Source: Asticcacaulis sp. EMRT-3 (GTDB taxonomy: Bacteria; Pseudomonadota; Alphaproteobacteria; Caulobacterales; Caulobacteraceae). Taken from it: a stretch of 64,000 bases of DNA. The position numbers and the translations under genes are program-made. This document shows positions 3,008 to 29,800 of the stretch, piece by piece (position 1 is the stretch's first letter; each line of letters opens with the position of its first letter). The stretch is taken from NCBI RefSeq assembly GCF_030027245.1, contig NZ_JASERT010000001.1:1447001-1511000 (forward strand). Direction: 5' to 3'. The notes beneath the pieces are model-generated. The model saw nothing but the letters and a program-made list of their open reading frames with translations, was not told the DNA's origin and did not search any database.

Positions 3008-3871
3008 TCACACCCGCCCCGCCATCGCCTGCAAAAACCCGTCAATCGCCGCCACGGCCACCGGTTCGTCGAGCATCGGCGCATGGCCGCGTCCGGGCAC
3101 TGTGACGGCTTGCAGATCGGGATGGCGCGCCTGCATCGCCTCAAAGGTCTGCGGCGATAACAGATCAGATAATTCGCCCCGGATCGCCAGCACCGGCACG
3201 GCCTGCATCTTATCCCACAGGCCCCACATGTCGGGCGGAGCCGCGCCATCATCGGCAGCCTGAAACGGTTTGGCAATATCGGGATCATAGGCGGGCGCAG
3301 GCCCCTGCGGCGTATCGCGGTAGGTGCGATGCGCAAAGGCCAGCCAGTCGGCCTCATTGTAGTCCGGGAAGGCCACCTCATTGACGAGTCGCGTGCGCTC
3401 GGCGGCGTGCACCCAGTCACGCACCGGCCCGCCCTTGCCCGTATAGGTCTTGATGCGTTCCAGCCCCGCCGGATCGAGTTCGGGGCCGACATCATTCAAG
3501 ACCACACCGATCACCATCGGCGCGGCCAGATTGGCCATCAGCATGGCCATGATGCCGCCCATCGAGGTGCCGATAATCACGCAGCGCGGAAGGCCCAGCT
3601 CGCCGAGCAAACCGAACACATCCCCGACATAGACAAGCGGCTGATAGTTAAGCGGCTCGGGGTCGTTATCCGACAGGCCGCGCCCGCGCATATCAGGCAC
3701 AATCACCCGATAATGTGGTGACAGATGCGCCGCCAGGGCTTCAAAATCGGCGCTGTTGCGCGTCAGCCCATGCAGACACAGAACAGGCATCCCCTCGCCG
3801 CCATAATCACGCGCATAAAGGGTCAGGCGCGCATCGGCGCTGGCATAGCGGATGTCGGTATAGGCCGTCAT
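3008..3871 (-). CDS. alpha/beta-fold hydrolase
   Basis: 287 residues. The fold is visible from the HG motif (LCLHGLTRNSADF, near residue 35), the VPDMRGRGLSD strand, the nucleophile elbow GTSMGG (serine near 106) and a C-terminal GRGHAPMLDEP that supplies the catalytic histidine. These place it with soluble cytoplasmic alpha/beta hydrolases of the esterase / C-C hydrolase type. No signal peptide is present. The start ATG has a GGAG ribosome site. It stands alone, facing TamB and preceded by a repeat element. The substrate cannot be inferred. Confidence 0.85.
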   Translation of the reverse strand: MTAYTDIRYASADARLTLYARDYGGEGMPVLCLHGLTRNSADFEALAAHLSPHYRVIVPDMRGRGLSDNDPEPLNYQPLVYVGDVFGLLGELGLPRCVIIGTSMGGIMAMLMANLAAPMVIGVVLNDVGPELDPAGLERIKTYTGKGGPVRDWVHAAERTRLVNEVAFPDYNEADWLAFAHRTYRDTPQGPAPAYDPDIAKPFQAADDGAAPPDMWGLWDKMQAVPVLAIRGELSDLLSPQTFEAMQARHPDLQAVTVPGRGHAPMLDEPVAVAAIDGFLQAMAGRV

Positions 3872-20426: not shown

Positions 20427-20500
20427 AGCAACGCGCGTTTTATTTGACTTATAAATTGAATGCGCGATGCGGAAAAACATAAAATGGAGAGCGGGTTGCG
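20424..20500. repeat. Dispersed repeat R1, copy 4 (truncated at the right)
   Basis: The left 77 bp match the other copies (TAGAGCAACGCGCGTTTTATTTG... GAGCGGGTTGC), then homology stops in the loop of the right-hand hairpin. The left TA contributes the stop codon of the IclR gene. Confidence 0.75.
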
Positions 20501-20515
20501 GAAATCCGGCCGTGC

Positions 20516-20728
20516 CTAAGGTCGGGATCGTGCCTCTGCGGCGGACTTCAGCCCCATAGCTTTAAAGACCATCGCCGCCGGACAGAATTTGGTGAAGGCG
20601 AACTGGAACAGATTCGCCCCCACAAAGACGGTCAGCCAGACGAAATAGGGGCTGACCCAGTAGGTCAGGGCCACGCTCAGCAGGGTCATAAAGCCCGCAA
20701 AGGCAAAAACGGCGCGCTCAATAGTCAT
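20516..20728 (-). CDS. DUF2892 (YgaP-type) inner-membrane protein
   Basis: 70 residues: two hydrophobic helices, VFAFAGFMTLLSVALTYWV and VWLTVFVGANLFQFAF, then the conserved FCPAAMVFKAMGLK tail with a single cysteine. This motif (often CP..W.L..LG) is typical of DUF2892, which commonly accompanies rhodanese or sulfide-oxidation genes and is fused to rhodanese in E. coli YgaP. The ATG overlaps the upstream sulfide:quinone oxidoreductase stop by 4 bp, so the two are co-translated. Confidence 0.85.
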   Translation of the reverse strand: MTIERAVFAFAGFMTLLSVALTYWVSPYFVWLTVFVGANLFQFAFTKFCPAAMVFKAMGLKSAAEARSRP

Positions 20729-22023
20729 GATGACTTCTCCTCTTTCAGCTTGTGTGCGCCCATCAGGTCGAGCGCCATCTTCTCGAAAAACATCTCGCTC
20801 TTACCGGCCTTGACCTTGCCGATGAAGTAGCTCTCAAATGCGGCTTTCGCCATGTGAACCCACTTGCCGGAGGCTGACCAGTTGATGTTGCGCGGCGGAA
20901 TCTGCGGCTGGGCAAAGAAGGCCACGCCACCATCACCGAAATCGGCCAGGCAGATGGCGTTCCAGGTGGCTTCGTGGGTCGCCGCCTTTCCAGCCAGAAT
21001 ATCGCGGATATTGTGCGCAATGGCCGTACACATCGATTCGATCATGAAGCCGGTCTTGGGCACGCCCACCGGCACGGCCGTCTTGCCCGTCGGCGGAATG
21101 GCGACGCAGACGCCGAGGCCGAAAATGTTCGGGAAGGTCGGGTTCTGCTGATGTTTGTCGATCAGGATAAAACCGCGCGGATTGGTAAGTCCCTCAATGC
21201 CGCGCACCGCTTCGACACCGCGAAAAGCGGGCAGCATCATCGAAAAGCCGAACGGCAGTTCATGATCGGCCTTGTGCGCGCCGTCTTCGCTTAGTTCCTC
21301 GACGAACATCTTGCCGGGCTCGATCTTTGCCACCCTGGCATTGGTGATCCACTTGATATGGCGGTTGCGCATTTCCGATTCGAGCAGGCCCTTCGTGTCG
21401 CCCACCCCATCGAGGCCGAGATGGCCGACATAGGGCTCTGAGGTCACAAAGGTCATGGGCACGCGGTCGCGCACCTTTCTTTTCCTCAGTTCGGTATCGA
21501 CGATCATGGCGAATTCATAGGCCGGGCCGAAACACGACGCGCCCTGCACGGCACCGATAATCACCGGCTGCGGGCTGGCCGCCAGAGCATCAAACGCTTT
21601 GGCCGCCTCGACCGCGTGATCAACATGGCAGACCGATGAGGTGAAGCCCTCCGGCCCCAGACCTTCAATCTCGTCAAAGGCCAGTTCCGGCCCGGTGGCG
21701 ATGACCAGATAATCATAGGCCAGTACCGTGTCGTCGGTGAGGATCAGGCGGTTTTGGGCGGGCTCGATCTTTTTGGCGCCATTTGCATAAAGGCCGATGC
21801 CTTTTTTGCGCAGCACGGGCTCAAGCCTGACCTCGATGGCTTCACGGGTGCGCCAGCTCACCGCTACCCACGGATTGGACGGCACAAAATGATAGATGTC
21901 GCCCTTGTTGACGACGATGACCTCGGCCTTGTCGCCGACCGCTTCCCTGATTTCAAAAGCGGCGATGGTGCCGCCCAGGCCCGCGCCCAGGATGACGATA
22001 CGGGGTTTCAGTTCCTTGTCCAT
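20725..22023 (-). CDS. sqr: Sulfide:quinone oxidoreductase family flavoprotein
   Basis: 432 residues. The FAD-binding motif VILGAGLGGTIAAFEI lies at 10-25 and the second flavin strand YLVIATGPEL near 105. Cysteines C132 (SSVCHVDHA), C164 (QGASCFGPAYE) and C358 (AICLADFGD) fall where the three redox cysteines of SQR sit (128/160/356 in the Acidithiobacillus enzyme, from memory). SQR oxidises sulfide at the inner membrane, passes electrons to quinone and yields polysulfide or persulfide. Co-transcribed with DUF2892, divergent from rhodanese and the RND pump. A few flavoproteins of this fold oxidise other thiols, so substrate is strongly suggested, not proven. Confidence 0.85.
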   Translation of the reverse strand: MDKELKPRIVILGAGLGGTIAAFEIREAVGDKAEVIVVNKGDIYHFVPSNPWVAVSWRTREAIEVRLEPVLRKKGIGLYANGAKKIEPAQNRLILTDDTVLAYDYLVIATGPELAFDEIEGLGPEGFTSSVCHVDHAVEAAKAFDALAASPQPVIIGAVQGASCFGPAYEFAMIVDTELRKRKVRDRVPMTFVTSEPYVGHLGLDGVGDTKGLLESEMRNRHIKWITNARVAKIEPGKMFVEELSEDGAHKADHELPFGFSMMLPAFRGVEAVRGIEGLTNPRGFILIDKHQQNPTFPNIFGLGVCVAIPPTGKTAVPVGVPKTGFMIESMCTAIAHNIRDILAGKAATHEATWNAICLADFGDGGVAFFAQPQIPPRNINWSASGKWVHMAKAAFESYFIGKVKAGKSEMFFEKMALDLMGAHKLKEEKSS

Positions 22024-22085
22024 ATGGCTTCCTCCAAAACCGGCTATGCTCTGCCCGCCATTTTACCAACGGACAGGAATGCGTC

Positions 22086-22134
22086 TTGACCTTGCATTTG
22101 CGTTATCTTATATTCGTATTATCGAATTTGTAAA
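22086..22134. promoter_or_regulatory. Bidirectional promoter with SqrR/BigR-type operator ATTC-N8-GAAT
   Basis: Rightward promoter: TTGACC (22086-22091), 17-bp spacer, TATATT (22109-22114). Leftward promoter on the minus strand: TTTACA (22134-22129), 16-bp spacer, TATAAG (22112-22107). Between them ATTCGTATTATCGAAT (22112-22127) is a palindrome of the ATTC-N8-GAAT form that I recall for Rhodobacter SqrR. It overlaps the rightward -10 and fills the leftward spacer, so one bound repressor would silence both transcripts. Confidence 0.7.
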
Positions 22135-22164
22135 TGATCTTTTTGCCATCGCGGAGTCCAGACC

Positions 22165-22491
22165 ATGTTCAATATGTTCACTGTCAAAAATCTCAGCCCC
22201 GCCGAAGTTAAGGCCGGGCTGGATCAGGGCGGGATCGTGCTCGTTGATGTGCGCGAGCCATCTGAGCACAATGCCGAGCGTATCAAGGGCGCGATCAATG
22301 TGCCTCTGTCAAAACTCGACAGCGCGAAGCTGCCCGATGCCGAAGGCAAGATGCTGGTGATGCAATGCGCAGGTGGCGTGCGTTCAGCCAAGGCGGTCGG
22401 CATATGCCGCAAGCGCGGGCTGAAGGTCGATCACCATCTGGCGGGCGGCATAGGCGCCTGGAAGGCCAGCGGCCTGCCCACGGTCCGGTAA
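22165..22491 (+). CDS. Single-domain rhodanese (sulfurtransferase)
   Basis: 108 residues covering one rhodanese domain. It shows LVDVREPSEHNAERIKGAINVPLSKL, the active-site loop CAGGVR (cysteine at about residue 69) and HHLAGGIGAWKASGLP at the end. It moves sulfane sulfur from persulfides to acceptors such as thiols or cyanide. No signal peptide, so it should be cytoplasmic. It is the first gene of the rightward operon rhodanese-MFP-RND-ArsR and faces the sqr gene, fitting a role in handling the persulfide that SQR makes. Confidence 0.9.
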   Translation: MFNMFTVKNLSPAEVKAGLDQGGIVLVDVREPSEHNAERIKGAINVPLSKLDSAKLPDAEGKMLVMQCAGGVRSAKAVGICRKRGLKVDHHLAGGIGAWKASGLPTVR

Positions 22492-22524
22492 CTAGCTCAT
22501 CCTATACACCTTCAGGAAATCCGC

Positions 22525-23550
22525 ATGGTACGGTTCAAAACCTCACTTATCGTCCTGGCCTTTGCCGCGTCCGGCATAGGCCTGTCTGCCTGCGGTCACA
22601 AGGAGGAGGTGACGCAGGTCAAGGCCTTCCGGGGCGAAACGCTTCAGGTCGAGCCGAAGCTGATCGAGGATGTCAAACCGGTAGCGGCAACCCTGACCAC
22701 ACGCCAGATGGGTGAGGCCACGGCGCGGGTGTCGGGCATTCTGACATCGCTGAAGGTGCGCGAAGGCGATATGGTGACCAAAGGCCAGGTGATCGGTTTC
22801 GTAACCGATCAGAGGCTCAATCTGCAAACCGGTGCCTATAATGCGGCCACCTCTGCCGCCGAAGCCCAGGCCAGTCTGGCGCGTGCGGCGCTTAGCCGCA
22901 CCCAGACGCTGTTCGACAAGGGCATCTATGCCCAGGCCAAGCTCGATCAGGACAAGGCCGCTGCCGAAGCCGCCGAGGCCAATGTCAGGGCGGCGCGCGC
23001 CCAGGCCTCGGCCAGCGGTGAAGGCGCTCGGCAAGGCGCTATTCTGGCCCCGGCGTCCGGACGGGTGATCCACGCCACCGTGCCTGTCGGTTCGGTCGTT
23101 ATGGCCGGTCAGTCGGTGGCCACCATCACCGCCGGCAACCGCGTGGTGCGGCTTGAACTGCCCGAAGCGCAAAGCAGCGCACTGACGCAAGGTCAGTCCG
23201 TCTCGCTCGATGCCGGTGGCGTCCGGGCCACGGGCGTGATCAGCGAAATCTACCCTTCCGTCACCGCCGGACAGGTGGTGGCCGATATGACCGCGCCGGG
23301 CCTCGATCAGGTCGTGATCGGCCAGACGGTGACGGCCTTTATCGGCGTCGGCCAGCGCACCGCCATCGTCGTGCCGAAGCGTTTCGTCACCACGCGCTAT
23401 GGCCTCGACTATGTTCGCCTCGTTGAAAAGAATGGCGCGCTGATGGAAACTATGGTTCAGACCGCCCCCACCGGTGACCCGGATGAGATCGAGATTCTGG
23501 GCGGGGTATCGGCCGGTGACAAGATTGCGGCCTATGGAGCGGGGCAATGA
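22525..23550 (+). CDS. RND efflux periplasmic adaptor (membrane fusion protein), lipoprotein
   Basis: 341 residues. The N-terminal segment ends in a lipobox, GIGLSACGHK (Cys near 23). A short biotinyl-lipoyl-like half (ARVSGILTSLKVREGDMVTKGQVIGFV), an alpha-hairpin rich in Ala and Gln (about 110-175), the second lipoyl half (ILAPASGRVIHATVPVGSVVMAGQ) and a beta-barrel follow. It links the inner-membrane pump to an outer-membrane channel; no TolC-like gene is nearby. It overlaps the pump gene by 4 bp. Confidence 0.9.
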   Translation: MVRFKTSLIVLAFAASGIGLSACGHKEEVTQVKAFRGETLQVEPKLIEDVKPVAATLTTRQMGEATARVSGILTSLKVREGDMVTKGQVIGFVTDQRLNLQTGAYNAATSAAEAQASLARAALSRTQTLFDKGIYAQAKLDQDKAAAEAAEANVRAARAQASASGEGARQGAILAPASGRVIHATVPVGSVVMAGQSVATITAGNRVVRLELPEAQSSALTQGQSVSLDAGGVRATGVISEIYPSVTAGQVVADMTAPGLDQVVIGQTVTAFIGVGQRTAIVVPKRFVTTRYGLDYVRLVEKNGALMETMVQTAPTGDPDEIEILGGVSAGDKIAAYGAGQ

Positions 23551-26500
23551 GTGAAGACAACGGGAGCCAGCCCTCACATGAAAAAAAGCTGGGCCTTTCC
23601 GGCCGCCTGACCAAGGCGACTTTGCGCTCACCCCTGACGCCTCTGTTTCTGATCGTCGCCATACTGGTGGGCCTGCTGGCCGTCATGTCGATCCCGCGCG
23701 AGGAAGAGCCGCAGATCAGCGTGCCGATGATCGACATCTCCGTCGCCGCACCGGGCATGAAGGCGGTCGATGCCGAGCAACTGATCGCCAAACCGCTCGA
23801 AACCATCGTCAAGAGCATCAATGATGTCGATCATGTCTATAGCTTCATCGACGACGACAAGGTGCTGGTGACGGCGCGCTTCAAGGTCGGCACCGACCCC
23901 GATAATGCCGCCATCCGCGTTCAGGAAAAACTGAGCGCCAATATGGATCGCCTGCCGGTGGGCATAGCCCCGCCGCTGGTGCAGACGCGCGGCATCAATG
24001 ATGTGCCCGCCATGATCATCACCCTGTCGCCGAAGCCCGGCACGGGCAATGAACTTAATGACACGGCGCTGTATAATCTGGCCGAAAAGTTGCGCGGCGA
24101 ACTGGCCAAGGTCGAGAATGTCGGCCTGACCTTTATCGTCGGCGGACGCCCCGAAGAAATCCGCATCGAGCCCGATGCCGCCGCCATGACCGCCCACGGC
24201 GTATCGCTCGATGCCCTGATGAATGCCGTCAAGGGCGCCAATACCAGCTTCCCGGCCGGTTCCATTCGCCAGAACGCCGAGGCCGTCAGCGTCACGGCAG
24301 GCCAGACCCTGCAAACCGCCACCGATGTCGGCATGATCACCGTGCCCTCGGTCACCGGCGATACGGTGCTTGTCCGCGATGTCGCCACCGTGGTTCAGGC
24401 CCCGCGCGAAGACCAGTCGCACGTCTTTCGCTATTCGCACCTCGCCAATGGCACCTGGGTGCAAACCCCGGCTGTCTCCCTGGCCATCGCCAAGCGCAAG
24501 GGCGCCAATGCGGTGGTTCTGTCAGGCGCGGTGCTGCAACGTGTCGAGAGCCTGAAGGGTTCGCTGATCCCCGATAATGTGCAGGTATCGGTGACGCGCG
24601 ACTATGGCCACAGCGCCAATGACAAGGCCAATGAACTGCTGTTCCACCTGGCCCTGGCCACGGTGTCGATCGTCATCCTGATCGGCTTTACCATCGGCTG
24701 GCGCGAGGCAGGCGTGACCGCCGTGGTCATCCCGACCACCATCCTGCTCACCATGTTCGCCTCATATCTGATGGGCTATACGATCAACCGCGTCAGTCTG
24801 TTCGCCCTGATCTTTTCCATCGGCATACTGGTGGACGACGCCATCGTCATGATCGAGAACATCTCACGCCACTGGGGCATGAATGATGGCCGGTCGCGGT
24901 TCGACGCCACGGTCGATGCGGTGGCCGAGGTCGGCAACCCGACCGTCATCGCCACCCTGACCGTGGTGGCCGCCCTTCTGCCCATGCTGTTTGTGTCGGG
25001 TCTGATGGGCCCCTATATGGCCCCCATTCCGGTCAATGCCTCAGCGGCCATGATCTTCTCCTTCTTCGTCGCGGTGATCCTGGCCCCGTGGCTGATGATC
25101 CGCTTTGCCCGCAAGACCCTGAAGGCTGGCGAGCACGCAGGCCATGCCCACGATCATGAAGGCTTTATCGGCGTCATCTATCGCCGCGTGGCCTCCAGCA
25201 TCATCAAGGATAAAAAGAGCGCCGGGCTTTTTCTGGCCGCTGTCGGCATCGCCACCCTGCTGGCCTGCTCCGCCTTCTATTTCAAGGCGGTGACGGTCAA
25301 GCTTTTACCGTTCGACAACAAGTCCGAGCTTCAGGTGATTGCCGACCTGCCCAGGGGCACCTCGCTCGAAACCACCCAGCGCATCCTCAATCAGGCGGCG
25401 CAGATCACGACCCAGATGAAGGAGGTCGAGGCCATCGATTCCTATGCCGGCACCGCCGCGCCGTTTAATTTCAACGGTCTGGTGCGCCACTATTATTTTC
25501 GAACCAATCCCGAACAGGGTGATCTCAATATATTGCTGGCCCCCAAGGACAAAAGATCGCGCGAAAGCCACGCCATCGCCATCGACCTGCGCAACCGCCT
25601 GAAGGCGATTGCCCTGCCCGCCCACGGCGTGCTGAAGGTGGTCGAAGCGCCACCGGGGCCGCCGGTCATGGCCACCCTGCTGGCGGAAGTGTATGGCCCC
25701 GACGCCGCCACGCGCCGCACCGTGGCCGAAAAGATCAAGGCGATCTACAAGTCGATCCCCTATATTGTTGATGTCGATGACAGCTATGGGGTGGCCCCGC
25801 CGAAACTGGCGATTGTCACCAACCGTCACCGCCTCGAAGCGCTGAATGTTTCTGATGGGCAGGTCTATGCCTCATTGAGCGCCCTAATGAACGGCCAGGT
25901 GCTCGGCTATTCCGACCGGGGCGATGGCCGCGATCCGCTTGAAATCTCGCTGCGCCTGCCGCAGTCCGAGCGCACCTATGATCAGGCGCTGCAATCCATG
26001 CCGGTGGCCGCCTCCACCGGGCCTGCGGGCACGCGGCTGGTGTCGCTGGGCGAGGTAACGACCGCCACCCAGACCACCGGCTCCACCCATATCTATCGCC
26101 GCGATGGTCGCAATGTCGATATGATCATGGGCGAAATGGCCGGCAAATATGAAGCGCCGATCTACGGGATTCTGGCGGTGGATAAGGCGATCAAGAATGC
26201 CGACTGGGGCAAGCTGCCCACACCCGCCATCCGCCTGCATGGCCAGCCCGAAGACGAAAGCCACGCCACGGTTCTGTGGGACGGCGAATGGGAGATCACC
26301 TGGGTCACCTTCCGCGATATGGGTGCCGCCTTCGGCGTGGCCCTGCTCGGCATCTATGTGCTGGTGGTCGGCCAGTTCAAAAGCTTCAAACTGCCTCTGG
26401 TCATCCTGACGCCGGTGCCCCTGACCCTGATCGGCATTGTCATCGGTCATATGCTGTTTCACGCGCCGTTTACGGCCACATCGATGATTGGCTTTATTGC

Positions 26501-26837
26501 GCTGGCGGGGATCATTGTGCGAAACTCGATCCTGCTCGTCGATTTCATCCGTCATGCCGACAAGTATGACAGCGACGGCCATAAGCGCCCCTTGCAGGCC
26601 ATCCTGCTCGATGCAGGTGCCACGCGCTTCAAGCCGATCCTGCTGACGGCCCTGGCGGCCATGATCGGGGCCAGTGTCATCCTGACCGATCCGATCTTTC
26701 AGGGTCTGGCCATTTCGCTGCTGTTCGGGCTTTTTTCCTCAACCCTTTTGACAGTGCTGGTCATTCCCGCCATCTATGTCGTCATGCGGGGTGATTCCAC
26801 GGTGGGCGATTCGGCGAGTAAAGGCGTCAACTCATGA
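23547..26837 (+). CDS. RND-family efflux pump inner-membrane permease
   Basis: 1096 residues, slightly longer than the usual 1020-1050. TM1 near 35-50 is followed by the first large periplasmic loop, TM2-6 with the proton-relay pair in SIGILVDDAIVMIENISRHW, a cytoplasmic connector with HAGHAHDHEG, TM7, the second porter loop and TM8-12. The hydrophobe-amphiphile type (AcrB/MdtC-like) is more likely than heavy-metal CusA because the methionine-rich CusA motifs are not evident. Its operon with rhodanese and an SqrR-like regulator suggests export of a sulfur-related or sulfide-induced toxic compound. Confidence 0.9.
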   Translation: MSEDNGSQPSHEKKLGLSGRLTKATLRSPLTPLFLIVAILVGLLAVMSIPREEEPQISVPMIDISVAAPGMKAVDAEQLIAKPLETIVKSINDVDHVYSFIDDDKVLVTARFKVGTDPDNAAIRVQEKLSANMDRLPVGIAPPLVQTRGINDVPAMIITLSPKPGTGNELNDTALYNLAEKLRGELAKVENVGLTFIVGGRPEEIRIEPDAAAMTAHGVSLDALMNAVKGANTSFPAGSIRQNAEAVSVTAGQTLQTATDVGMITVPSVTGDTVLVRDVATVVQAPREDQSHVFRYSHLANGTWVQTPAVSLAIAKRKGANAVVLSGAVLQRVESLKGSLIPDNVQVSVTRDYGHSANDKANELLFHLALATVSIVILIGFTIGWREAGVTAVVIPTTILLTMFASYLMGYTINRVSLFALIFSIGILVDDAIVMIENISRHWGMNDGRSRFDATVDAVAEVGNPTVIATLTVVAALLPMLFVSGLMGPYMAPIPVNASAAMIFSFFVAVILAPWLMIRFARKTLKAGEHAGHAHDHEGFIGVIYRRVASSIIKDKKSAGLFLAAVGIATLLACSAFYFKAVTVKLLPFDNKSELQVIADLPRGTSLETTQRILNQAAQITTQMKEVEAIDSYAGTAAPFNFNGLVRHYYFRTNPEQGDLNILLAPKDKRSRESHAIAIDLRNRLKAIALPAHGVLKVVEAPPGPPVMATLLAEVYGPDAATRRTVAEKIKAIYKSIPYIVDVDDSYGVAPPKLAIVTNRHRLEALNVSDGQVYASLSALMNGQVLGYSDRGDGRDPLEISLRLPQSERTYDQALQSMPVAASTGPAGTRLVSLGEVTTATQTTGSTHIYRRDGRNVDMIMGEMAGKYEAPIYGILAVDKAIKNADWGKLPTPAIRLHGQPEDESHATVLWDGEWEITWVTFRDMGAAFGVALLGIYVLVVGQFKSFKLPLVILTPVPLTLIGIVIGHMLFHAPFTATSMIGFIALAGIIVRNSILLVDFIRHADKYDSDGHKRPLQAILLDAGATRFKPILLTALAAMIGASVILTDPIFQGLAISLLFGLFSSTLLTVLVIPAIYVVMRGDSTVGDSASKGVNS

Positions 26838-27139
26838 GGCAAGATACCTCCCCTATGGTGTTGGCGGCCAATGCTCAGAAGGCGACGCGCCTGCTGAAGC
26901 TGATGGCCAGCGAACAGCGCCTGATGATTCTGTGCAAGCTGAGCGACGGCGAGCAAAGCGCCGGTGAACTGACCGAACTGGTGGGCTTAAGCCAGGGCGC
27001 GGCCTCTCAGCACCTGCAAAAGATGCGCGCCGAGGGTCTGGTCGAAACGCGGCGCGACGCCCAGACCATCTATTACCGCCTGGACGACGACGCGGCCCGT
27101 CAGGTGATCGACCTGCTCTGCACCATCTACGGCAATTAG
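26834..27139 (+). CDS. ArsR-family regulator, SqrR/BigR-like persulfide sensor candidate
   Basis: 101 residues with a winged helix: RLMILCKLSDGEQSAGELTELVGLSQGAASQHLQKMRAEGLVETRRDAQTIYYRL. Two cysteines only, C34 in helix 2 and C96 in the last helix. BigR and SqrR use a helix-2 and a last-helix cysteine to form a tetrasulfide link when persulfide rises, releasing DNA. C34 matches; C96 appears one helical turn before the remembered position of the second one. Last gene of the operon (4-bp overlap), so it would be autoregulated through the ATTC-N8-GAAT site at 22112. Confidence 0.85.
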   Translation: MRQDTSPMVLAANAQKATRLLKLMASEQRLMILCKLSDGEQSAGELTELVGLSQGAASQHLQKMRAEGLVETRRDAQTIYYRLDDDAARQVIDLLCTIYGN

Positions 27140-27241
27140 AGTTTCATGCACCTCGAAAGCATGACGAAACGGTTATAACTGTTTTCTTATTTTATTCTGC
27201 TTACTGCCTTTGGCGATATGTAGGCAATTCGAGAAGGTGCC

Positions 27242-29800
27242 GTGCACGAAATCGACGCGAACACCCCACCGGATTCATCACAGCAGGTCGCAGACGCACC
27301 TGTGCAGGCCAGCGCCTATCTGGCGGCGATCATCGATTCATCCGACGACGCCATTGTCGGCAAGAATCTCCACAGTGTCATCACCTCATGGAATTCATCG
27401 GCGGAACGGATCTTCGGCTATAGCGCTCAGGAAGCCATCGGCCAGCCGATCACCCTGATCATCCCGCCGGAACTGCGCAGCGAAGAAGACGCGATCATCA
27501 CGAAGATCAGGGCCGGTCAGCGCGTCGAGCATTTCACCACCGACAGGCTGACCAAATCGGGCCAGATCGTCAATGTGTCGATCACCGTATCGCCGATCCG
27601 TGACGCGGCGGGGCGAATCATTGGTGCCTCCAAAATCGCACGCGACATGACCGCCCAGAAGCGCGCCGAAGTCCGTCGCATGGCACTGACGCGCCTGACC
27701 GACGACATCCGCGACCTGAACGAGGCTGAAGACATCGCCTTCGCCGCCGCCCGGATTCTGGGCGAAACCCTCCAGATCAGCCGCGTCGGTTACGGTCTCA
27801 TCGACACGGTCAGCGAAACCATCACCATCGAGCGTGACTGGAACGCGCCGGGCATCAAAAGTCTGGCGGGCGTGCTGCACTTTCGTGATTACGGCTCCTA
27901 TATCGAAGATCTCAAGCGCGGTGAAACCGTCGTGTTCGCCGATGCCGAAAAGGATCCGCGCACCGCACACATGGCGGCGGCGCTCAAAGCGATCAGCGCG
28001 CAGTCGGTCATCAATATGCCCCTGACCAATCGCGGGCAGTTCGTGGCCCTGCTCTACCTTAATCATGTTACGGCACGCGACTGGCCCGAAGACGATCTGG
28101 CCTTCGTGCGCGAAGCCGCCGAACGCACGCGCATCGCCTCAGACCGCGCGCGCGTCAGCGCCGAATTGCGCCAGAGCGAGTCGCGTCTGCGCGATCTCAA
28201 TAGCCAGCTCGAGGGTCGGGTGCGCGAAGCCCTGGCCGAGCAGCGGGTTCTGGCCGACATTCTGGAATCGACCGATGCCTACGTGCAGGTGGCCGATAAC
28301 GCTCTCAACTGGCTGGCGATCAACCGCGCCGCCAGCGAAGAATTCGAACGCATCTATGGCGTCCGCCCGAAGGTGGGCGACAATATGCTGGAAGCGCTGC
28401 GCCACATTCCCGAACAGCAGGCGACGGTCGAACAGGTCTGGCGACGCGCCCTGACGGGTGAGGCCTTTACCCTCGTCGCGCAATATGGCGATCCCAGGAT
28501 CGACCAGCGCTTCTATGAAATGAAGTTCAACCCGCTCTACAATGAAAACGGCCAGCAGGTCGGGGCCTATCAGTTCGTTTTTGATGTCAGCGAACGTATG
28601 CGCAGCGAGGCCCGGCTGCGCGAGGCCGAAGACCAGTTGCGTCAGGCGCAAAAAATGGAAGCTGTCGGCCAGTTGACCGGCGGCGTGGCCCACGATTTCA
28701 ACAATATGCTGGCCGTCGTTTCGGGCTCGCTGGAACTGCTCGACCGCCGCACCACCATCGGCGATCCGCGCGCCAAGAGCCTGATTTCCTCGGCGCTGGA
28801 GGCGGCGCGCCGCGCCGGCAGCCTGACCCAGCGCCTGCTGGCCTTTTCGCGCCAGCAGCCACTGAAGCCCGATGTGACCGACGCCAACAGGCTGGTGGCT
28901 GGCATGTCGGATCTGTTTCGTCATTCGCTCGGTGCCGACATCCAGCTTGAAACCGTGCTGGCTGGCGGCCTGTGGCGGCTGCATGTCGATCAGAATCAGC
29001 TTGAAAACGTTCTGCTCAATCTCGCCGTCAATGCACGCGACGCCATGCCGGGCGGCGGACGCCTGACCATCGAAACGCAAAACGCCCATCTCGACCAGCG
29101 CTATACGGCCAGAGAGGTCGGCCTCGCGCCGGGGCAATATGTGATGATCGCCATCACCGATACAGGTTCGGGCATGACTCCCGACGTCATCGCCAAGGCG
29201 TTCGATCCGTTTTTCACGACCAAGGAGGTGGGCAAGGGCACGGGCCTCGGCCTCAGCCAGGTCTATGGCTTTGTCAAACAGTCAGGCGGTCACATCAAGA
29301 TCTATTCCGAGTCCGCTCAGGGCACGACCATCAAAATCTACCTGCCGCGCCACACCGGCGACCCACTGGACACGCCCGATGACGAGGATACGCACAGCCT
29401 GCCCGCAGCCGAGGGCCGTGAACTGATCCTTGTTGTCGATGATGAAGATCTGGTGCGGCAGTTTTCCACCGCCGCCCTGAGCGATCTCGGCTATCGCGTA
29501 CTCGAAGCCAACAATGCGCGTACCGCCCTGACCCTGCTGAAGGACAGGCCGGACATCGACCTTTTGTTCACCGACATCGTCATGCCGGACATGAATGGCC
29601 GTAAGCTGGTTGATCTGGCGCACGAACATCGCCCCGGCCTGCCCGTTATCTACACCACCGGCTATACGCGCAACGCCATCGTCCATAATGGCGTGCTCGA
29701 TGCAGGCGTCGAACTGATCGGCAAGCCCTTCACCCTGGAAGAACTGGCAACCCGGGTCAGGAACGTCCTTGACCGGGCGGCGCTTGACCGTCAGGGCTGA
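27242..29800 (+). CDS. Hybrid sensor histidine kinase (PAS-GAF-PAS-HisKA-HATPase-REC)
   Basis: 852 residues, GTG start with GAGAAGG upstream. PAS 1 (about 20-140) includes [13 protein letters not shown] and [22 protein letters not shown] (about 150-300); a short coiled coil; PAS 2 (about 330-450); a HisKA dimerisation helix with [11 protein letters not shown] (phospho-His); HATPase_c with N, G1 (DTGSGM) and G2 (GKGTGLGLS) boxes; and a C-terminal receiver with [14 protein letters not shown]. No membrane helices, so it senses a cytoplasmic signal. No partner regulator is adjacent. The signal is unknown; a flavin-LOV cysteine motif (NCRFLQ) is not seen. Confidence 0.88.

Follow-up and report, generated by a model that had tools for sequence, protein, structure and literature searches.

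The window analysed here is a 64,000-nucleotide stretch of the genome of Asticcacaulis sp. EMRT-3. Within it, a 141-bp gap (22024-22164) separates sqr and ygaP-TM, which run leftward, from a rightward series of rhodanese, MFP, RND and ArsR genes. The features discussed below are as follows.

20516-20728, reverse strand: ygaP-TM, YgaP-like transmembrane protein of 70 aa (PF11127), overlapping the end of sqr
20725-22023, reverse strand: sqr, sulfide:quinone oxidoreductase (phmmer E 1.7e-141 against the SQR of 3sz0)
22086-22114, forward strand: promoter TTGACC-N17-TATATT of the rhodanese–MFP–RND–ArsR operon (direct reading and promoter scan)
22094-22113, no strand: O1, upstream dyad of the putative tandem operator, in the −35/−10 spacer and one 16-bp step from O2
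22107-22134, reverse strand: putative promoter TTTACA-N16-TATAAG for sqr (direct reading)
22112-22127 (20-bp frame 22110-22129), no strand: O2, dyad ATTCG-N6-CGAAT, over the rightward −10 and the expected start; conserved block
22165-22491, forward strand: single-domain rhodanese (PF00581), loop CAGGVRS read from the sequence
22525-23550, forward strand: RND periplasmic adaptor, MFP (TIGR01730, above cut-off)
23547-26837, forward strand: RND permease (PF00873, 492 bits)
26834-27139, forward strand: ArsR-family regulator with C34 and C96, the proposed repressor

The SQR aligned to the solved SQR 3sz0 over residues 8-430, nearly its full length, and all three cysteines that we take to be catalytic are aligned. 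The MFP, RND permease and ArsR genes overlap by 4 bp at each joint. Directly 3′ of the ArsR gene lies a gene for a PAS-domain hybrid histidine kinase (27242-29800, forward strand), CckA-like by NCBIfam at scores below the cut-offs. Judged by the RND protein, the closest named relatives among the best 80 of 570 are Asticcacaulis benevestitus (90%), A. sp. AC466 (88%) and A. taihuensis (87%).

The first-pass annotation had described the gap as 141 bp long with two outward-facing promoter-like sites, and direct reading of the sequence bore this out. On the right, the −35 TTGACC (22086-22091) and −10 TATATT (22109-22114) match 10 of 12 consensus positions, in agreement with a promoter scan of 20500-28000, which returned seven promoter-like sites where shuffled sequence averaged 2.5. 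On the left, we read a −35 TTTACA (22134-22129) and a −10 TATAAG (22112-22107), while the scan favoured an alternative, N18-TAAGAT, with 9 of 12 matches. Across the five Asticcacaulis-clade regions, the rightward −10 is TATATT in all five and the −35 is TTGACC in four; the leftward −10 is TATAAG in all five and its −35 is variable. Conservation of the leftward −10 is not independent evidence, because its bases also belong to O1 and O2. As read from these sequences, the putative leftward promoter is weaker than the rightward one and not independently conserved. As had been claimed, the palindrome ATTCGTATTATCGAAT at 22112-22127 overlaps the rightward −10 and fills the leftward spacer: it shares 3 bp with the former, occupies 15 of the 16 bases of the latter and extends one base into the leftward −10.

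The palindrome contains the pattern ATTC-N8-GAAT, which occurs once in the window against 0.96 expected and at least once in 63 of 100 shuffles. Genome-wide, 16 sites were found against 11 for a reversed control pattern, and a genome-wide regulon on this pattern was therefore rejected. The other 15 sites, judged by open reading frames only, include a near-identical palindrome ~50 kb away within the frame of ribosomal protein S17. Nine of the remaining 14 lie inside a frame of at least 200 aa; two are just 5′ of frames, one for a phosphonate-binding-like protein (L166) and one of 497 aa with no Pfam match (L159); at one further site (L161), a glutathione S-transferase-like frame starts ~570 bp away. 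Thus, ATTC-N8-GAAT alone is not significant; its position together with its conservation is.

To follow the locus through its relatives, we sampled 99 genomes of the family; 33 had an SQR match (E ≤ 1e-40), 39 a permease match (E ≤ 1e-200) and 73 a related ArsR (E ≤ 1e-8). The loci compared were 40 from these genomes and 80 named ones, the best 80 of 570 relatives. With L058, L062, L074 and L082 (which has no right-hand gene) left out, the comparison covered 117 regions, 104 of them distinct after merging of copies. Six of the 104 (L086, L098, L100, L113, L149 and L154) are cut contigs or fall-back stretches that lack sqr and the promoter, and were kept as misses. An sqr gene is present in 85 of the 104 distinct regions, and 81, from Caulobacterales and Sphingomonadales, have divergent sqr and RND genes. 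Of these 81, 73 have a 3′ ArsR gene, some contigs being cut short; 62 of the 73 also have the rhodanese gene, and 12 carry a second, 5′ ArsR gene between sqr and RND. Related regions share ancestry, so these counts are not independent events. In L067 and L134, sqr appears in two frames. In many Caulobacterales loci sqr and ygaP-TM are separated by ~450 bp or more, whereas in the window they overlap; the sole such gap that was read, in L084, holds a gene for a thioredoxin-2-like protein (3384-3833, reverse strand; CPSCG... WCGPC).

Run on 38 of the 41 regions, a motif search reached a score of 689, compared with 141-162 in six shuffled sets; on the 104 regions it yielded GCTTGACTTTATATTAGAATTATCGCATATACGCAATTACGAAATT. 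Exact ATAT-N12-ATAT occurs in 71 of the 104 regions (shuffled mean 0.56, maximum 4) and ATTAG-N6-CTAAT in nine. Only four contain ATTC-N8-GAAT (in shuffles 0.74 on average and 4 at most): the window, L075 (A. benevestitus DSM 16100), L078 and L084. Three of these are Asticcacaulis-type, and the pattern was rejected as the general box of the sqr/RND locus. The expectation that the motif would recur beside sqr thus held for the palindrome as part of a conserved operator, and failed for ATTC-N8-GAAT as its common form. The common site looks like a tandem operator under a TTGAC −35, built of ATAT-N12-ATAT units at a 16-bp step; its ATAT-like half-sites at 0, 16 and ~32 make up two dyads. In L140 and L147, both with sqr, the motif search found nothing resembling it.

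We then asked whether the arms of each dyad pair with one another across the 92 regions used for this tally, 12 of the 104 having scored ≤15, the six without the promoter among them. Mean arm pairing was 4.89 of 7 positions for O1 and 3.49 of 7 for O2, against at most 3.58 and 2.24, respectively, at slid partners; the true partner beat all eight slid partners for both dyads. This test is less exposed to shared ancestry than the region counts. The window itself lacks an exact ATAT-N12-ATAT: O2 reads ATAT-N12-ATTT, one base off, and O1 reads GCAT-N12-ATAT, two bases off, with arms pairing at 6 of 7 and 3 of 7 positions. In 15 of the 92 regions O2 pairs better than O1, and the five Asticcacaulis-clade regions (window, L035, L036, L075 and L078) are all among them. 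On this comparison, the window carries a diverged form of the putative operator, in which the palindrome is O2; in the Asticcacaulis clade this dyad seems to have been perfected as O1 degenerated. With up to three mismatches allowed, the genome contains a single copy of the whole-operator pattern, as would suit a regulator that acts locally. For the extended O2 pattern at up to one mismatch, forward and reverse rows numbered 12 and 7, compared with 6 and 5 for the control, so that single O2-like sites lie somewhat above control (19 versus 11 rows); four other O2-like places that were inspected, including the only other exact site, are each inside an open frame.

The last gene of the rightward operon had been called SqrR/BigR-like. 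The protein scores 53.9 bits against HTH_5 (cut-off 22), and its predicted structure is a winged-helix ArsR fold with N- and C-terminal helices that superposes on SqrR, BigR and HlyU. Among 10 HTH_5 matches in its genome, its only match (E ≤ 1e-8) is itself. C34 aligns with the first sensor cysteine of SqrR/BigR in helix 2, which we take to be residue 41 in SqrR and 42 in BigR, the second presumably being 107 and 108. The second cysteine, C96, precedes the position of SqrR C107 by four residues, or one helical turn, and position 100 is a glycine. Among 90 distinct proteins from the 3′ slot, C34 is present in 89 and C96 in 81, and seven have serine at position 96. Our alignment A1 of 30 hand-picked rows contains none of the nine 3′-slot proteins that lack C96, so the invariance of C96 there is no count. 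Three loci with Ser-96 (L046, L047 and L123) have no 5′ ArsR, and the cysteine pair is thus not needed everywhere. The fold and the two cysteines support the earlier assignment, but the score of 82.5 bits against the NCBIfam BigR equivalog cut-off of 155 and the position of the second cysteine do not; the protein is SqrR-like and is not established as SqrR.

The anatomy of the gap, its conservation, the gene order, the predicted fold, the cysteine positions and the single full-length site in the genome point to a role for 22086-22134 that we consider likely: that of regulatory region for a conserved sulfide-stress module, in which the 3′ ArsR would act as a thiol switch that represses the rhodanese–pump operon and perhaps sqr too.

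Shared control of sqr from the operator in the window is, in our judgment, about an even call. One alternative, possible though doubtful, is that the repressor controls the rightward operon only, that sqr has its own promoter, activated by an FNR/FixK-type factor in many relatives, and that the overlap in the window is incidental. Consistent with this idea, the leftward −35/−10 is poorly conserved, the operator in Caulobacterales lies at a median of 109 bp from sqr, and an FNR-like box, TTGAT-N4-RTCAM, precedes sqr in 23 of 53 Caulobacterales regions (e.g. L060, L084 and L114). The box is 50-73 bp from the sqr start in 20 of the 23, a usual place for an FNR/FixK activator, which would presumably be the factor acting there; it is 44-52 bp from the operator in 19 of the 23. 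However, within the Asticcacaulis clade only L036 has the box, which is absent from the other four regions, among them the window, and from all 24 regions of a mostly Sphingomonadales group that also includes a few other Alphaproteobacteria (e.g. L139, L146 and L153). In that group, the first half-site lies at a median of 30 bp from the sqr start and within 45 bp in 14 of 24 regions; an sqr promoter in these regions should therefore overlap the operator, provided that the start codon is correctly assigned.

A second alternative concerns the signal. The substrates of RND/MFP pumps are diverse, as are the effectors of thiol-switch ArsR proteins; the module could thus answer another thiol-reactive stress (oxidant, electrophile, metal or antibiotic), with SQR and rhodanese taking part in repair and the RND pump exporting a xenobiotic. 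In 16 of the 104 regions, RND and 3′ ArsR occur with no sqr in the fetched stretch, some of these being contigs cut short. No SQR match at E ≤ 1e-40 came from the six genomes that carry loci L068-L073. We nevertheless regard this explanation as unlikely, given that sqr, the rhodanese gene, ygaP-TM and the thioredoxin-like gene of L084 are all sulfane-sulfur or thiol genes.

Finally, a different regulator might bind the operator while the 3′ ArsR acts elsewhere. One candidate, where it is present, is the 5′ ArsR of some relatives, which has its second cysteine at the standard position (C100); seven such proteins also fell below the BigR cut-off (88.0-93.5 bits versus 155). In all 13 regions listed, the 5′ ArsR frame starts at an ATG inside O2, for example ACGCAACTATGAA; loci with this arrangement include L041, L043, L050, L051, L053, L061, L067 and named ones such as L079 and L087. 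This arrangement suggests self-repression: the gene is probably leaderless, with its start codon at about the expected transcription start. In L151, from Sphingomonas canadensis, an ArsR of the 5′ type (C100) occupies the 3′ slot behind the RND gene, and the operator there is similar but lower-scoring (12.7), with a spacing one base longer, possibly a repressor swap. Arguing against a different regulator in the window, the locus has no 5′ ArsR copy and the full operator occurs only once in the genome. Moreover, across 79 regions, operator distance tracked the distance of the ArsR HTH part after removal of RND distance (partial correlation 0.15; 0 of 499 permutations), compared with 0.08 (37 of 499) for whole ArsR and 0.06 (74 of 499) for the rest of the protein; given the rest of ArsR, the HTH–operator partial correlation was 0.24, calculated without permutation. 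The DNA-binding part of ArsR thus appears to track the operator sequence modestly, a small effect from which shared ancestry is incompletely removed, in a kind of test that can be lenient. On balance, a different binder seems quite improbable. That the palindrome is a chance AT-rich repeat of two promoters, as the near-chance counts in the window and the genome might suggest, was rejected as highly improbable, since dyad conservation and pairing among relatives were looked for and found.

Returning to the 3′ ArsR as repressor, the mechanism that we infer, in its binding, repression, persulfide chemistry, start sites, sqr control and pump substrate, would run as follows. The product of the final gene in the rightward operon, a dimeric thiol switch of the ArsR type, would bind the adjoining dyads O1 and O2 and block the rhodanese–MFP–RND–arsR promoter, and with it the expression of its own gene. 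Because O2, the better of the two dyads in the Asticcacaulis clade, also fills the spacer of the putative sqr promoter, a single dimer could shut off transcription in both directions. SQR would turn sulfide into persulfide, which would link C34 and C96, and the DNA would be released.

A broader reading, which we put forward tentatively, is that the 3′ ArsR forms a separate persulfide-sensor lineage, with a C34–C96 bridge one helical turn from the SqrR/BigR bridge and a tandem operator of three half-sites. In some Caulobacterales it would act beside a standard-type (C100) 5′ ArsR, whose start codon lies inside the operator, so that two sensors together would switch sulfide oxidation, sulfur transfer and efflux; the Asticcacaulis clade would have shifted the better dyad from O1 to O2, bringing the sqr promoter under the same repressor. 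For Caulobacterales and Sphingomonadales, the locus offers a putative operator and sulfide-stress sensor that can be tested, and it ties an RND pump to sulfane-sulfur handling. It may also be a natural instance of the SqrR/BigR fold with its second sensing cysteine relocated, which would test what sets persulfide selectivity. The original interpretation was right in kind and is corrected in its motif (4 of 104 regions) and its family assignment (82.5 bits for BigR against 155).

Among known systems, NolR of Sinorhizobium fredii (PDB 4omy) is listed among the closest to the window ArsR; to our knowledge, it is not a sulfide regulator. HlyU and YgaV are among its best sequence and fold matches and carry a C-terminal LYC/VYC cysteine where the window protein has G100; HlyU is named an activator, whereas the window ArsR is proposed as a repressor. 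Relative to BigR of Xylella fastidiosa (PDB 3pqj), the window ArsR has its second cysteine at the IFC position, and we know of no RND pump in the BigR operon, unlike that of the window. Compared with SqrR of Rhodobacter capsulatus (PDB 6o8k-6o8o), the second cysteine aligns to residue 103, not 107. The window carries one ATTC-N8-GAAT, which we take to be the SqrR site of R. capsulatus; the operator common to its relatives is instead the tandem ATAT-N12-ATAT, and the operon here is rhodanese–RND.
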